From: Cellulosimicrobium cellulans
GTDB lineage: Bacteria > Actinomycetota > Actinomycetes > Actinomycetales > Cellulomonadaceae
DNA length: 64,000 nucleotides
NCBI RefSeq assembly: GCF_016907755.1
Contig: NZ_JAFBCN010000001.1
Location: forward strand, 3,720,001-3,784,000
Direction: 5' to 3'
Shown: positions 9,111 through 64,000 of the stretch, piece after piece
Numbering within the stretch: the stretch's first letter is position 1
How the letters are laid out: each line of letters opens with the position of its first letter
Notes under the pieces: generated by a model
What the model saw: the letters and a program-made list of their open reading frames with translations, nothing else
What the model was told of the DNA's origin: nothing
Databases searched by the model: none
Program-made: the position numbers and the translations under genes

Positions 9111-10535
9111 GTGTCCGACGAGCGCACGCTCTTCCCCATCACCATGCGCGGGTACGACCGCGTCCAGGTCGAGGCCCAGCTCGCGAAGCTGGAGAAGGCC
9201 GTGGAGGACGCGCGCTCGCGCGTCGAGGCCGCGGACGCCCGCGCCATGCAGCTCACGAGCGAGCTCTCCGACGCGCAGCGTCAGCTCCGCGAGGCGGACC
9301 GCCCCTCGTACGCCGGCCTCGGCTCCCGCATCGAGCAGCTCATGCGCTCCGCTGAGGAGCAGTCCGCGGACATCCTCTCCCAGGCCAACGCCCAGGCCGC
9401 CGACATCATGGCGCGCGCCAAGCTCTCGGCCGGCCAGGTGCGGTCCCGCGCCGAGAACGAGGTCGCCGAGCTCCTCAACAGCGCGCGGCTCGAGTCCGAG
9501 GAGATCCGCGCCACGAGCGCCTCGGAGGCCGAGGGCACGCTGATCAGCGCGCAGCGCCGCGCCGAGGAGTTCGTCGGCTCCGCCGAGCGCGAGGCCGCGC
9601 GCATCCAGAGCGCGATCGCCACCGAGGAGAGCGAGCGGCGCGCGTCCCTCGAGCGCGAGCTCGGCACCCTGCGCGCGACGGCGGAGCGCGAGACGACGGA
9701 GCTGCGCGTCACGACCGAGCGCGAGGCCGCCGAGCTGCGTGCCCGCGTCGCGGCGGAGACCGCCGCTCAGCGCGAAGCCGCCCAGCGCGAGTCCACGGAG
9801 CTCCTGGAGAACGCGCGCCGGGAGGCGCAGCGCCAGGTCGACGAGGCGCAGCGGAAGGCCACCGAGGCCGCCAACGCCGTCACGTCGGAGATGGAGGAGC
9901 TGCGCGACAAGGCCCGCACCGCGCTCGCCGACGCGGAGCTCGACGTCGTGCGCCGCCGCGAGGAGGCGGAGCGCGAGAACGCGGAGCGGCACGCCGCGGC
10001 CAAGGCCGAGACGGAGAAGCTCGTCGCCACCGCCGAGGAGCACGCGGCGGAGGCGGAGAAGCGTGTCGCGCGCGCGCTGGAGCAGGCGGAGAAGGTCCGC
10101 ACGGAGTCGGACGCGTACGTCAAGGACCTCATGTCGACGGCCCGGCGCAACGCCGACCAGATCGTCGCCGAGGCGCGCTCGTTCGCGGACCAGACGGTGA
10201 GCGACGCGAAGGCGGAGGCCGAGCAGCAGCGCAACGTGGCGCAGCGCCAGCTCGAGGACCTCACGCGCCAGCACGACTCGATCAACACCTACCTCGACGA
10301 GCTGCGCGGGCTCCTCGGCGGCGAGGCCGAGCCCGCGAAGGCTCCGGCGAAGAAGGCTGCGGTGCCTGCCGGCACGCCCGCGCAGCAGGCGCGCGCGGCG
10401 CAGCTCCTCACGGCGGAGTTCCCGGTCGTCGCGGAAGAGCCGGACCAGCAGGGCGGGTCGGGCACCTCGACGAAGCGCGGCCCCGCCGGTCAGGCTGACG
10501 TCGAGGCCGAGACCGACGCTCCTGCACCGGCCTGA
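9111..10535 (+). CDS. DivIVA-domain coiled-coil protein (Scy/FilP-like)
   Basis: A 474-residue protein. It starts with a short DivIVA-type motif (ITMRGYDRVQVEAQLAKLEKAV, about residues 11-32) and continues as an almost unbroken Ala/Glu/Arg-rich coiled coil to about residue 410. The tail is Lys/Ala- then acid-rich. The start is GTG at 9111 with GGAGG 8 nt upstream; an ATG 33 nt further in has no ribosome site. In actinobacteria such proteins (Wag31, Scy, FilP) build polar or cytoskeletal assemblies that direct wall growth. The heptad length rather than enzyme motifs drives the call. The next gene starts 3 bp after the stop, so they form an operon. Confidence 0.83.
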   Translation: MSDERTLFPITMRGYDRVQVEAQLAKLEKAVEDARSRVEAADARAMQLTSELSDAQRQLREADRPSYAGLGSRIEQLMRSAEEQSADILSQANAQAADIMARAKLSAGQVRSRAENEVAELLNSARLESEEIRATSASEAEGTLISAQRRAEEFVGSAEREAARIQSAIATEESERRASLERELGTLRATAERETTELRVTTEREAAELRARVAAETAAQREAAQRESTELLENARREAQRQVDEAQRKATEAANAVTSEMEELRDKARTALADAELDVVRRREEAERENAERHAAAKAETEKLVATAEEHAAEAEKRVARALEQAEKVRTESDAYVKDLMSTARRNADQIVAEARSFADQTVSDAKAEAEQQRNVAQRQLEDLTRQHDSINTYLDELRGLLGGEAEPAKAPAKKAAVPAGTPAQQARAAQLLTAEFPVVAEEPDQQGGSGTSTKRGPAGQADVEAETDAPAPA

Positions 10536-10538
10536 CCG

Positions 10539-10985
10539 GTGTCCTCCGCGGACCCCGCGGGCCGCACCGGGTCCGCTGCCGACGACTGGCGTCGGCAGCG
10601 GACCGAGGCCGCGGCGCACCAGCAGCGCGAGCTCGACCGCCAGCGCGCGCGGGAGAGCGCCGCGGCCCGCTCGCTCCTCGCCGAGTTCGTGGTGCGCGCC
10701 CGTGAGCGCGGCCTCGCGCCCGAGCCGCTGCGCGCCCGGTCGTTCGACGGCACGGCCACCTACCGGACCCCGCTCCAGGGCTGGTACCTGCGCCGCAACC
10801 GCAGCGTCGCGGTCGGCGAGGACGGGGAGTTCTACGTGCTCGGGGTCCCCGGCACCGTGCTGGGACGGCTGCGCGGGGTGAGCGTCGAGCCGTCGGACCC
10901 GCCGCTCGTGCTCGGCAAGGGCGGACGGGACGGCGAGTCGATCGACCTCGCGGACGCGCTCGCGCTCGTGCTCGACGGCCGCTGA
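10539..10985 (+). CDS. Conserved hypothetical protein paired with the DivIVA-like gene
   Basis: A 148-residue soluble protein of unknown function. Residues about 15-50 form a charged helix (Arg/Glu/Gln/Ala), perhaps a short coiled coil. The rest is a small alpha/beta domain with TPLQGWYLRRNRSVAVGEDGEFYVL and a Gly-rich turn. The GTG start at 10539 is 3 bp after the stop of the coiled-coil gene and has only a weak ribosome site, so translation probably relies on coupling. The helix and position suggest it may bind the DivIVA-like partner, which is inference only. Confidence 0.7.
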   Translation: MSSADPAGRTGSAADDWRRQRTEAAAHQQRELDRQRARESAAARSLLAEFVVRARERGLAPEPLRARSFDGTATYRTPLQGWYLRRNRSVAVGEDGEFYVLGVPGTVLGRLRGVSVEPSDPPLVLGKGGRDGESIDLADALALVLDGR

Positions 10986-11037
10986 CCGCCCCGGCCCGCC
11001 GACGCGCAGGCGCGTGGCCGGCCGTGGCCGGCCGGGC

Positions 11038-11826
11038 TCAGGCCGAGGCGCGGGCCAGGAGGTCGGCCAGGGCGTCCGCCACGGCGGCCGGGTCCTCGAC
11101 CGCGCTCATGTGCCCGGCGCCCGTCACCTGGACCAGCTGCGCGGCGGGTGCGGCAGCGGCCATGTGCTCGGCCTCCGCCGCGGGCGTGAGCGCGTCCTCC
11201 TCCCCCACGACCACGGCCACCGGGCCGGCGAACCCCTCGAGCACGTGGGTGCGGTCCGGCCGGGCCGCCATAGCGCGCTGCGACCACGCGACACCGTCGG
11301 GCCGCTGCCCGCGGATCCACTCCTCGAGCCGTGCCGTGAGGTGCTTGCGCGCGGCCTTGCTCGTCTCCCCGAGCATCACGCCCGGCATGCCGAGGACGGC
11401 GTCGACGGTCTGGGACCGCGCGGCCTCGTCCGCGACGCGCAGCCGGTTGGCGCGGGCCTCGTCGGTGTCAGCGGTCGACTTGGTGTCCACGAGCCCGAGC
11501 CCGGCGACCAGGCCGGGGTGCCGCTCCGCGAGAGCGAGCGCGACGTAGCCGCCCATCGACAGCCCCGCGACGACCGCGCGCGTGATCCCCGCCGCGGTGA
11601 GCGCGGCGGCGGTGGCGTCGGCCGCGGTGTCGATCGACGCCGGCTCGCCCGCCAGCGGGCTCGCGCCGAGCCCCGGGAGGTCGACGGCGACGACGGTGGG
11701 CTCGCCCGGCAGCGCGGCCGCGACGTCGGCCCACATGCGGTGGTCCAGCGGGAAGCCGTGCAGCAGCACGAGCGGTGTCCCGTACCCCTCGCGCAGCGTG
11801 AAGGTCTCGAGCGGGGCCGTCGTCAC
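11038..11826 (-). CDS. Alpha/beta hydrolase
   Basis: A 262-residue cytoplasmic alpha/beta-hydrolase of the 3-oxoadipate enol-lactonase/epoxide-hydrolase-like group. Motifs seen are the oxyanion loop LLHGFPLDHRMW (about 21-32), nucleophile elbow GLSMGG (Ser at about 93), acid region VVGEEDALTP, and His in GAGHMS near the C-terminus. The start is GTG at 11826, just behind GAGGAGG; longer frames upstream have no signal. The substrate cannot be read from the sequence. It lies 77 bp downstream of another hydrolase on the same strand. Confidence 0.85.
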   Translation of the reverse strand: MTTAPLETFTLREGYGTPLVLLHGFPLDHRMWADVAAALPGEPTVVAVDLPGLGASPLAGEPASIDTAADATAAALTAAGITRAVVAGLSMGGYVALALAERHPGLVAGLGLVDTKSTADTDEARANRLRVADEAARSQTVDAVLGMPGVMLGETSKAARKHLTARLEEWIRGQRPDGVAWSQRAMAARPDRTHVLEGFAGPVAVVVGEEDALTPAAEAEHMAAAAPAAQLVQVTGAGHMSAVEDPAAVADALADLLARASA

Positions 11827-60630: not shown

Positions 60631-61941
60631 TCAGCCCTCGGGGTCCCGGTCGACGCGCTCCGCGAGCGCCTGGGCCCGGCCCTCGGCGCGCGCCCGTTCC
60701 AGCGCTTCCTCGAGCTCGGTCGCGGTGAGCGCGGTCGCGCCCTGCGCCGTGGCGCGCACCTCCGGGGCGGGGCCCGCCACCGGGCTCGTCGAGACTGCGA
60801 CAGAGGCCGAGGTCCCGGTCGCGGTCGCCGAGCCGGCCGCTCGCAGACCGCCCGGGGCGTCCCCCGCGCGCCGACGACGGAGCGCGGCGACGAGCGCCGG
60901 GCCACGCAGCGCGACGAGCAGCGCCAGCCCGACGAGCACGAGAGCGGCCCAGGGGACCGCCCAGGTCTGCGCCGCGCCGTCGTCGCTCGCCGTCGCGCCG
61001 CCGCCGATCCCGACAGCGGTGGCGGTCACGTCCACGGTGGCGTCGGCGCGGCCGAGGGGTCGTACCCCGGTGACGGCGACCTCGCGCTCGAGCGCGGAGC
61101 CGGGGAGCAGCTCCGGCAGCTCCCCGTCGCTCGCGGTGGTGGCCGCCCAGCCGAACGGTCCCGTCACGGCGACGGACTCGGCGGGCACGACGCGCGCGTT
61201 CCCGGTGTTGGTCAGGGTGTACCGCACGGTCGCCGACGAGGTGCCGAACGGGTTCGCGACGTCGTGGTGGACCACCTCCACGTCGCTCACCTCGACCGCC
61301 GGGGCGAGCGCACCCTCGACGCGCGCGTGCACGCGCAGCGCGAGGCGCCGGTCGAGCGCCACCGTGGACGCCGACGCCTGCTGGACGAGGGAGGTGATGA
61401 CGCCGGCCGAGTGGTCTCCGGGCGACGCGTCGGCAGGCACGGCGATGGTGAACGGGACGTCGATCGACTGGCCGGGGTCGACGGTGATCGAGCCGGACCC
61501 GAGCGTGATCCACGCGCCGAGGTCCGTCGAGCGCTCCGCCGCGGGGAGCAGGTCGAGCTGGCCCGACGTCGTCGTGAACGCGTCGGCGGCGTAGGTGCGC
61601 AGCTCCAGGCGCTGCGCGGAGCGGTTCGTCACGACGACCGTGTCGGTGATCGTGTCGCCGGGCCGGACGGCGTAGGAGAAGTTGGGCCGGTCGGTGCCGT
61701 GGTCGTTGTCGGCGGGCAGGAGGCCCCAGCTGAGGTCGCCCGTGGTGTCCCCCGCGAGGGTGGACACCACGGGCGCCGAAGGCGCCGTGGGCACCGCGCC
61801 GCCCGCCCGCGCCGTCCCCGCAGGGACGAGCGCGAGCAGGACGGCGAGCGTGCCGGTGAGCACGGCGACGAGCACGGCGACGAGCGCCGCCGCGCCCCGA
61901 GCGGGGCGGTGCGTACGGACGGGGGCGGCGGCGCGGTTCAT
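60631..61941 (-). CDS. WxL-interacting surface protein (DUF916-like)
   Basis: A 436-residue protein with a signal peptide (about 1-45), a DUF916-type beta domain (PNFSYAVRPGDTITDTVVVTNRSAQRLELRTYAADAF, about 85-200) and a second Ig-like part (about 200-320). One membrane helix (about 325-345, VPWAALVLVGLALLVAL) precedes a cytoplasmic Arg/Ala-rich tail. In Firmicutes such proteins are peptidoglycan-bound partners of WxL proteins. Start ATG at 61941, 8 bp after the neighbouring gene's stop, so the two are in one operon. The pairing with an HtaA/WxL-like protein is unusual. Confidence 0.82.
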   Translation of the reverse strand: MNRAAAPVRTHRPARGAAALVAVLVAVLTGTLAVLLALVPAGTARAGGAVPTAPSAPVVSTLAGDTTGDLSWGLLPADNDHGTDRPNFSYAVRPGDTITDTVVVTNRSAQRLELRTYAADAFTTTSGQLDLLPAAERSTDLGAWITLGSGSITVDPGQSIDVPFTIAVPADASPGDHSAGVITSLVQQASASTVALDRRLALRVHARVEGALAPAVEVSDVEVVHHDVANPFGTSSATVRYTLTNTGNARVVPAESVAVTGPFGWAATTASDGELPELLPGSALEREVAVTGVRPLGRADATVDVTATAVGIGGGATASDDGAAQTWAVPWAALVLVGLALLVALRGPALVAALRRRRAGDAPGGLRAAGSATATGTSASVAVSTSPVAGPAPEVRATAQGATALTATELEEALERARAEGRAQALAERVDRDPEG

Positions 61942-61949
61942 CGGTCCGG

Positions 61950-63332
61950 TCAGCCCACCGCGGTGAGCGTCAGGACGCCGGTGTAGTCCCCGGCCCCCGT
62001 GTCGAGCGGCAGGCGCAGGTCGATCGCGGCCTCGGCCTGGACCGAGCCCTTCGGGTGGCCGGCGGGGGCCGACGCGAGCGTCGACGACGCCTTGAGGCCC
62101 TCGCCCTCGCCCGCGACGACGACGCGCCCGTTGCCCGCGCCCACCGTGTTGTCCCCGGCGAGCGCCGGGCCCCAGCCGAGGTGCTTGCCGGAGAAGGTCT
62201 TGGCGCCCGACGCGAAGTCGCTCACGGACCCGTTGATCGCCCACGCGGGCTGGCCCGCGCGGGTGTCGGTGATCGTCACCTTCGGCAGCACGCCGCTCGC
62301 GACGAACGAGCCGTCGCGCACGGTCGCGGTGCCGAGGCTCACGGCCGGGGTGCCCCCCTCGATCGTCCAGACGAACTCGCCCGGCTCCTCGGGCTCGTCG
62401 ACCTCGGGCACGGTCACGTCGATCGGCACGTCGCCCTCGCCCGGCTCCCCGGGCTCGCCCGGACCACCCGGGTCGACGGGGCCGGCGTCGACCGTGTAGG
62501 TGACGTCGATCGGCAGGGCCGGCTTGAGGTCCTGCATGCCGCCGCAGCCGGTCGAGTAGAAGTGCGGGCGGACGCTGCCCGGCAGGGTGGTGACGAACTC
62601 GGGCGCCCAGGAGCCCCACCAGCCCGTCGCGGTGCCCGACGCGACGCAGTTGCGCGTCTGCGGCGAGCTGTCGGCGGGGTCGACCTCGATGCCCTGGAAG
62701 TCGGGCGTGATGCGGACCGTGTCGGCATCGACGACGTCGACCGAGCCCGGGGAGAACGTCACGAGGTCGAGGCGTCCGTAGCTCTGCTCGTCGACGGGGT
62801 TGCCGGACATGTCGATCCCCGCGCCGAGCGTGAACTCTGCGCTGAAGGACCCGGAGCCGTCCGCCTCGACGACGAGCTGCGGGTTCGCGTAGATCTCGTC
62901 GGGCGCGCCGAACTGGGCCGGGTAGGCGTTGACCGTGTAGCTGCCGGACCAGGCGAGCGCGAGCTCGTGCGTGTCCGCGTCGTAGGTCCCGGAGCCCTCG
63001 GTGAACTTCACGGCGTTGGGGGTCTTGCCCGCGTGCTCGGCCGGGAAGGACGTTGCCGGGACGGGGTCGACGACGTACTCCGACTGCGTCCCGCCGGAGA
63101 CGCTCCCGACGAGCTGGGCGGCGTCGCCCGTGAGGTCCTTGTACGTCCAGGGCCCGAAGATGCCCTTCTGCGCGTAGCCGTTGAGGCCCCACACGAAGGA
63201 GGCCCCCTCGACCGTCTGCTCGGCCGCCTGCGCGGGCGCGGCGACCCAGACCGTGCCGAGGCCGATCGCGGCGACGGCGGCGCCGGCGACCAGCCGGTGC
63301 GTGGGTCGCGTCCGGTGTCTGTGCGTGTGCAT
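61950..63332 (-). CDS. Secreted HtaA-like/WxL-like surface protein
   Basis: A 460-residue exported protein with a signal peptide ending APAQAA (about 36). The N-terminal half (about 40-235) resembles the HtaA heme-binding domain family: ASFVWGLNGYAQKGIFGPW, GSGTYDADTHELALAWSGS and NPQLVVEADGSGSFSAEFTLG. Two Cys (RNCVAS and STGCGG) could form a disulphide. A Pro/Gly/Glu linker (GEPGEPGEGD) leads to a C-terminal beta domain (about 320-460) with FVWTIEGG, LGWGPAL and the last residues TGVLTLTAVG, like WxL domains. Heme binding and WxL wall attachment are inferred from pattern only. It is translated with the DUF916 gene. Confidence 0.72.
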   Translation of the reverse strand: MHTHRHRTRPTHRLVAGAAVAAIGLGTVWVAAPAQAAEQTVEGASFVWGLNGYAQKGIFGPWTYKDLTGDAAQLVGSVSGGTQSEYVVDPVPATSFPAEHAGKTPNAVKFTEGSGTYDADTHELALAWSGSYTVNAYPAQFGAPDEIYANPQLVVEADGSGSFSAEFTLGAGIDMSGNPVDEQSYGRLDLVTFSPGSVDVVDADTVRITPDFQGIEVDPADSSPQTRNCVASGTATGWWGSWAPEFVTTLPGSVRPHFYSTGCGGMQDLKPALPIDVTYTVDAGPVDPGGPGEPGEPGEGDVPIDVTVPEVDEPEEPGEFVWTIEGGTPAVSLGTATVRDGSFVASGVLPKVTITDTRAGQPAWAINGSVSDFASGAKTFSGKHLGWGPALAGDNTVGAGNGRVVVAGEGEGLKASSTLASAPAGHPKGSVQAEAAIDLRLPLDTGAGDYTGVLTLTAVG

Positions 63333-63442
63333 GATGTCCTCTCGTGCCGGCGGTGCCGGCTCCTGTGCTCCGTGAGTGGTGCTCTCGTGAGTGGTGGGTG
63401 CGCGCGCTGCCCGCGTGCGCGATGCCGGGCGAACCGGCGCGA

Positions 63443-63493
63443 CCGCCCTGCCGTCGGGTCCGGGTGCCAGCCCGGGGCCCGACGGCGGGGCGG
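63443..63493 (-). terminator. Terminator after the edge gene
   Basis: A 16-bp outer stem with one G-T pair and a CCGGG/CCCGG inner stem, starting 4 bp after the stop of the gene at the right edge. It separates that gene from the HtaA-like operon. Confidence 0.85.
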
Positions 63494-63497
63494 ACCT

Positions 63498-64000
63498 CTA
63501 TCCCCGGAAGGGCAGGACGAGCCAGCCCTTCCGGAACCCGACGACCGTGCCCGCGGAGGCGAGCAGCAGCCCGGTGGTCATGAGCGCGAGCCGTTGTGAC
63601 GGGTCGCGCAGGGCGTCCGCGAGGTCGGGGACGAGCCCGGTGCGCGCGGCGCCGATCGTGGCGGCGGGGGTCGCGAGGAACGCGACGGGCGCCGCCGTGT
63701 CCGTCGGGGGTCCGAGCGAGGACGTCGCCCGAGAGGCAGCCGCCCCGCTCCCCGCCCCCGCTCCGGGCCCGGTGCGGACGCCCGGGGGCGTGAGCACGGG
63801 GTTGGACACCGTCCCCGCCGGCGGCGTCGCCTCGCCGCCCGGCTGCTGCGGGACGGGTGCGTCGGCGTCGTAGCTCACGTACAGCGGCGCCGCGACCTTC
63901 GCCCAGTCACGCTGACCGCCCGAGGTGTACCAGTACGCGGCCTGCCCCGTCCGCACCTGGAACTGCACGAAGCTCGTGGGGAAGGCACCCCAGTGGGCGG
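63498..64000 (-). CDS. C-terminal part of a membrane-anchored surface protein (5' end outside window)
   Basis: About 167 codons are visible and the frame is open to the window edge (AHWGAFPTSFVQFQV precedes the first internal start), so the gene begins beyond 64000. The order is a beta-type segment with GQAAYWYTSGGQRDWAKVAAPLYVSYDAD, a Pro/Gly/Thr-rich stalk of about 60 residues, and one membrane helix (LALMTTGLLLASAGTVVGF) with a short KGWLVLPFRG tail. It is probably a wall-spanning surface protein of the same cluster. I cannot name its N-terminal domains. Confidence 0.7.
   Translation of the reverse strand, partial: AHWGAFPTSFVQFQVRTGQAAYWYTSGGQRDWAKVAAPLYVSYDADAPVPQQPGGEATPPAGTVSNPVLTPPGVRTGPGAGAGSGAAASRATSSLGPPTDTAAPVAFLATPAATIGAARTGLVPDLADALRDPSQRLALMTTGLLLASAGTVVGFRKGWLVLPFRG

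Follow-up and report, generated by a model that had tools for sequence, protein, structure and literature searches.

Heme scavenging by CR-type proteins of corynebacteria and surface display by WxL domains, which is known from Firmicutes and is discussed mostly for host adhesion, are two fields that stood apart in the literature searched here. In Corynebacterium, HmuTUV occurs with the HtaA-superfamily surface proteins HtaA and HtaB, and the system is iron-controlled in C. diphtheriae (PMC12494546, in the part available to us). In Dietzia, ORF1247 and ORF1248 lie beside a heme ATP-binding cassette (ABC) transporter, and their products were named DtHtaB and DtHtaA. The available portion of that report (PMC8027190) states that DtHtaA bound heme in vitro, took heme from three of four hemoproteins tested, and was more than 50-fold up in membrane vesicles under iron limitation; its removal lowered growth on free heme by 76.4%. 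The WxL clusters of Firmicutes contain a WxL-type domain beside a membrane-spanning WxL-interacting protein (WxLIP) with two immunoglobulin (Ig)-like domains (PMC10599100; PDB 9i25, 9i1y). Here, a locus with features of these systems is described from Cellulosimicrobium cellulans. It lies partly in the window, a stretch of 64,000 nucleotides (G000:C1:3720001-3784000 of a one-contig 4.79 Mb genome), and extends past the window end. Two of its genes encode P1, with an HbpA/HtaA-type N-terminal and a WxL-like C-terminal domain, and a DUF916 protein of the WxLIP type. With a probability of about 0.7, P1 is a heme or hemoprotein receptor that is displayed by a WxL/WxLIP pair instead of by sortase, feeds HmuTUV, and is encoded in an iron-regulated operon. 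The architecture proposed by the initial annotation, in which one protein combines an HtaA-superfamily and a WxL-like domain and has a partner of the WxLIP type, was backed by profile, fold, and neighbourhood tests.

Both open reading frames lie where they had been annotated: P1 at 61950-63332 (460 amino acids) and the DUF916 protein at 60631-61941 (436 amino acids), with 8 bases between them. Database searches found 215 relatives of P1 and 77 of the DUF916 protein; chance reading frames of GC-rich DNA were therefore ruled out. The closest database protein to P1 among the matches listed (98%) is named from Cellulosimicrobium. The DNA past the window end was studied as L005 (window coordinate = L005 + 55999). 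Seven consecutive minus-strand genes, from hmuT to the DUF916 gene, form the locus, and its features are as follows:

69466-69484 (beyond the window), before hmuT: DtxR-box-like site
68228-69388 (beyond the window), minus strand: HmuT-type binding protein
67092-68231 (beyond the window), minus strand: FecCD permease
66274-67095 (beyond the window), minus strand: HmuV-type ATPase
64880-66277 (beyond the window; L005 8881-10278), minus strand: surface protein
63498-64883, minus strand, with 63498..64000 in the window: HtaA-like protein 2
61950..63332, minus strand: P1, secreted, with HbpA/HtaA-type N-terminal and WxL-like C-terminal domains
63222..63332, minus strand: P1 signal peptide, residues 1-37, ending APAQAA (read by eye)
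62490..63218, minus strand: P1 N-terminal domain, residues 39-281, HtaA/CR superfamily, Gly57 at the axial-Tyr position
61953..62375, minus strand: P1 C-terminal WxL-like domain, residues 320-460, first motif W-A-I at 364-366, second absent
60631..61941, minus strand: DUF916 protein, WxLIP type, with two Ig-like domains, a transmembrane helix, and a tail
61399..61704, minus strand: PF06030 (WxLIP_PGBD) match of the DUF916 protein, residues 80-181
61069..61233, minus strand: PF10633 (NEW3)-like stretch, residues 237-291, at the place of DUF3324 in Firmicute WxLIPs
60865..60951, minus strand: hydrophobic helix, residues 331-359, then an Arg-rich stretch

The first five genes, from hmuT to that of HtaA-like protein 2, overlap by 4 bases at each of four junctions. 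One terminator-like site was seen in L005 4400-13700, with 0.7 expected.

Profile comparison showed that the C-terminal domain of P1 is related to WxL proteins. The alignment of 76 C-domains with eight actinobacterial proteins over the PF13731 (WxL) cut-off, made by hhalign, gave 97.2% with an E-value of 4.5e-11 over 125 columns; five column shuffles gave 0.0-0.5%. As a control, trimmed N-domain rows gave 0.8% against WxL, and untrimmed rows reaching into the C-domain gave 59.9%. The 76-domain profile also picked up all 14 reading frames of WxL loci given to it (E <= 1.1e-4), nine of them over the PF13731 cut-off and five under. The single C-domain sequence of P1 finds an over-cut-off WxL protein as well (L039, E 1.3e-8). 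In the alignment A2 (window P1 and 54 of 120 relatives among the matches listed), PF13731 matched 16 of 55 proteins at E <= 1, with a best value of 2.5e-4. The tryptophan of the first motif is present in 25 of the 26 rows of A4, which are actinobacterial. A tryptophan in the last 14 residues, the place of the second motif, occurs in none of them (0/26), including the nine over the Pfam cut-off. With the threshold relaxed to E <= 10, PF13731 gave four weak matches in this genome, and P1 is not among them. One WxL-like protein was found in L005.

The DUF916/WxL-interacting partner was verified by its PF06030 score (37.9 bits; cut-off 27.3). The protein has the WxLIP fold, with two Ig-like domains in the WxLIP arrangement, and its best solved fold match is the Enterococcus faecium WxLIP bound to WxL. 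Firmicute WxLIPs have DUF3324 as the second domain (PMC10599100); no DUF3324 (HBD) match was found here at E <= 1, and the NEW3 stretch stands in its place. A C-terminal hydrophobic segment is present in 44/44 rows of A3 and qualifies as a transmembrane helix. P1 may contact this protein through its C-domain.

The N-terminal domain of P1 belongs to the HtaA/CR superfamily; its fold is nearest to HbpA, and it lacks the canonical heme-ligating tyrosine. The fold matches HtaA/CR domains, and the closest solved structure among the matches listed is the hemoglobin receptor HbpA (PDB 9bcj, 9bch), with 17-18% identity in the aligned parts. The sequence profile of A2 matched 9bch weakly (E 0.096), and PDB sequence searches with P1 alone and with one HtaA domain gave no useful match. 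Profile-profile comparison with CR domains gave 95.0% with 14 first-round CR rows, and 87.5% (E 3.6e-6) with the HtaA-2-type row L076 left out. PF04213 (HtaA) matched 36 of the 55 A2 proteins at E <= 1, the best at 1.6e-5. Tyr53, Tyr132, Tyr137, and His257 of P1 are invariant in 119/119 rows. P1 may bind heme or a hemoprotein. No sortase signal was seen when the last 60 residues of P1 were scanned for motifs, and such a signal in P1 was rejected.

HtaA-like protein 2 corresponds to the "further membrane-anchored surface protein" of the initial annotation, and its membrane segment was read by eye. It has no Pfam match of its own, and a PDB sequence search gave no useful match. Profile comparison showed that its family is homologous to the P1 N-domain. 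Against CR domains it scored 87.9% with the 14 first-round rows and 81.7% (E 1.1e-5) with L076 left out; with 24 CR rows including L076, the values were 97.5% for this protein and 94.4% for the P1 N-domain. The surface protein encoded after hmuV matches no Pfam family, and a relative is found in most related heme operons. Its domain, as judged by eye, recurs inside fused receptors (L010, L012, L013) and in a 1489-residue HtaA protein of this genome.

The search for heme ABC genes beyond position 64000, also proposed by the initial annotation, was positive, with HmuT, the FecCD permease, and HmuV directly past the window end. The binding protein matches C. glutamicum HmuT (PDB 5az3, E 8e-71). 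The abstract of PMC4926363 names His141, Tyr240, and Arg242; a His and a Tyr-x-Arg are retained at this spacing, which covers the His and Tyr heme ligands of HmuT. HmuV scored 297.6 bits with the NCBIfam heme ABC ATPase model (cut-off 261). The transporter is thus of the heme kind. The DtxR-box-like site before hmuT matches 15 of 19 positions of a DtxR-box consensus. Sites of at least 14 matches were absent from 20 simulated sequences of L005 composition, and at least one occurs in 29 of 35 related loci. The operon is probably iron-regulated. A heme oxygenase gene is present elsewhere in the genome (203 bits).

When genome contigs were searched for members of the P1 family, 35 named loci were obtained from genera including Cellulosimicrobium, Lentzea, Actinokineospora, Actinosynnema, Microbacterium, Cellulomonas, Nocardioides, Aeromicrobium, and Dietzia. 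Ten of these were shorter than asked, and all were counted (L055, L072, L074, L076-L079, L081, L082, and L084; L077 ends at P1). HmuT is present in 30 of the 35, and in the other five (L072, L074, L079, L081, L082) the sequence stops early on that side. Of the 35 loci, 17 have both the WxL-like domain and a WxLIP gene and 18 have neither; three of the 17 have the domain on a protein other than P1. In P1 relatives without the domain, modules such as Big_3_5 repeats or S-layer-homology domains are found. In a wider set of 20 loci, one being the second pair of this genome, 19 have a WxLIP gene near the domain, and the sole miss (L016) ends 254 bases after the domain. In a sample of the phylum, 24 of 396 actinobacterial genomes have the WxL-like domain. 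Among the 35 stretches scanned, a same-strand WxLIP gene lies within 5 kb of 37 of 42 WxL-like domains, and by our own count 29 of the 37 are directly downstream within 250 bases. Seven sister proteins (L010, L011, L012, L018, L065, L066, L078) have an over-cut-off HtaA domain (56.3-71.5 bits) joined to the same C-domain, and these proteins retain the S-F-x-x-Y motif. This C-domain is also joined, in L013, L014, and L021, to a domain that resembles HtaA-like protein 2 and has no Pfam HtaA match. Some Cellulomonas loci (L061-L063) have a weak, short DUF916 match that starts at the very end of the P1 gene and is perhaps a one-domain WxLIP.

These results are consistent with the following mechanism. 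The P1/DUF916 pair would form the outermost layer of a Cellulosimicrobium heme-uptake system whose operon is under iron control. P1 would be secreted, and its HbpA/HtaA-type domain would catch heme or a heme-bearing protein. The product of the next gene downstream, the WxLIP-type protein anchored in the membrane, would hold the WxL-like domain, probably through strand completion of the sort modelled for the Firmicute pair. The receptor would thereby stand in the cell wall, above HtaA-like protein 2, which may hand heme to HmuT and the permease. Of this picture, the order of the genes, the families and folds of the components, and the joint occurrence of WxL-like domain and WxLIP gene are directly shown. 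A broader proposal is made tentatively and at slightly below even odds: the actinobacterial WxL/WxLIP pair might be a sortase-free wall holder for heme or hemoprotein receptors, joined by strand completion like that of pilins and membrane-tethered chaperones, into which three kinds of HtaA-superfamily receptor are plugged. The WxLIP would then be fixed in the membrane of the bacterium itself, contrary to the published view of a helix in the host membrane. Such a system would give WxLIP a testable job in a bacterium with a readable cargo and pathway, and would suggest the direction in which its membrane helix points. It also suggests a sortase-free way of showing heme receptors on the surface.

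Several observations weigh against this reading. The HtaA-type domain of the initial annotation held in fold and family comparisons, but P1 itself stays under the PF04213 cut-off (19.9 versus 24 bits). The axial tyrosine of CR domains, in the first helix (Tyr49/Tyr129 in the available part of PMC12494546), is replaced by Gly57 in 119/119 rows; this position, which the profile alignments do not reach, was assigned by eye with the W-G start common to the sequences as guide. The WxL-like domain likewise stood as a profile match to WxL proteins, but not as a Pfam hit in P1 (PF13731) or with a second W-x-L motif. Because the Pfam match and second motif are missing and the profile match is present, the C-domain is a divergent WxL-like domain, not classed here as a member of Pfam WxL. 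The WxL chain of 9i25 is absent from the 50 P1 fold matches listed, which is not decisive, and PDB sequence searches with the C-domain profiles A1 and A4 did not find it. In the tree, the P1 proteins that have the C-domain fall into a single group (support 90/84), so the 35 loci are not independent events, and the co-segregation of domain and WxLIP rests on few evolutionary events. For five of the 42 WxL-like domains, no WxLIP gene lies on the same strand within 5 kb; the five include L086 (third copy of this genome), L111 (contig edge), and L116 (DUF916-type gene slightly more than 5 kb away). The 165-base gap between HtaA-like protein 2 and P1 could contain a separate promoter. No DtxR-box-like site of at least 14 matches was found in three Dietzia loci, which are among the six of 35 without one. 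Removal of hmuUV in Dietzia lowered growth on heme by only 16%, as given in the available part of PMC8027190.

A further explanation is that P1 is a hemoprotein receptor rather than a heme binder, with HbpA-like docking at P1 and uptake of the released heme by CR-type proteins. This is a serious possibility, somewhat short of an even chance. However, DtHtaA, the same protein type by synteny, bound heme in vitro in the available account (PMC8027190), which weakens the case that Gly57 excludes heme binding; the four invariant residues could also make another heme site. The HbpA-like domain family is spread over non-corynebacterial actinobacteria, and any heme ligand that it has must be other than the one known. 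The distribution of the C-domain raises the question of whether the domain and WxLIP form a general actinobacterial wall-display module with nothing special to heme. The domain is also found on a purple-acid-phosphatase-type protein (L020), on a repeat protein (L017), and alone (L033), each time adjoining a WxLIP gene, and it reaches 24/396 sampled genomes. As the account of this locus it is rather unlikely: three HtaA-superfamily kinds (canonical CR, HbpA-like, HtaA-2-like) are each fused to the C-domain, and a general module would be compatible with heme-receptor display, not exclusive of it. It is quite improbable that the C-domain is a spacer or dimerising Ig-like domain without an anchoring role, with a separate role for the DUF916 protein. 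The C-domain is homologous to Pfam WxL and frequently has a WxLIP neighbour; relatives exchange it for S-layer-homology or Ig-repeat C-termini, and no WxLIP gene was found in the loci without it.

In comparison with the described systems, the locus resembles that of Dietzia in its gene content, since heme ABC genes have two HtaA-like genes beside them in both. The Dietzia loci L080-L082 have a P1-type N-terminal domain with a GYAQKG motif; L080 has the same gene order, and L081 and L082 agree in the parts they contain. DtHtaA is therefore probably a relative. In contrast, no WxL-like domain or WxLIP gene was found in L080-L082, and the available text of PMC8027190 places DtHtaA in the mycomembrane and its vesicles. 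Corynebacterium HtaA and HtaB differ in their presumed hold by C-terminal membrane helices and in the presence of the axial tyrosine (PMC12494546, available part). The literature on C. diphtheriae HbpA, in the parts available, mentions neither a WxL-like domain nor a WxLIP partner. Compared with Firmicute clusters, the Cellulosimicrobium locus has one WxL-like protein rather than two, a NEW3-like second domain rather than DUF3324, a heme-receptor cargo, and no second W-x-L motif; its WxLIP-type protein has an Arg-rich stretch and a long tail past the helix. The operon type is thus partly known already from DtHtaA of Dietzia. What is new is that display by WxL/WxLIP is combined with heme uptake of the HtaA/HbpA type, each being of a known kind; among the papers listed in literature searches, none joins WxL display with heme receptors, as judged by titles and the starts of abstracts.

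Within the genus, hmuT of the P1 locus was found at E <= 1e-80 in 4 of 17 genomes; the locus is therefore accessory. P1 is present in three of the four, whereas G008 contains L011, the fusion of HtaA and WxL-like domains. The WxL-like domain is also fused to other proteins. In L020 (1498-3456) its fusion partner is a purple-acid-phosphatase-type protein, in which PF16656 and PF00149 both exceed the cut-off, and a WxLIP gene adjoins; in other genomes of the genus (L017 724-2028 and L015) the domain is fused to a repeat protein with a WxLIP gene downstream. The second pair of this genome (L033 9313-9954 and about 10000-11248; G000:C1:2135432-2137240) consists of a stand-alone WxL-like protein of 213 amino acids followed by a DUF916 protein. 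It resembles a small WxL protein with its WxLIP, and the next gene, by eye, is like release factor 2. The third WxL-like protein (L086 5299-6033; G000:C1:1414511-1415023) has no same-strand WxLIP gene within 5 kb. The 1489-residue protein (L006 4906-9375) contains three over-cut-off HtaA domains, Ig-like repeats, and an LPXTG-type anchor (18.5 bits; cut-off 15.9), with a DtxR-box-like site (14/19) just before its gene. This genome therefore also has heme domains displayed in the sortase manner.

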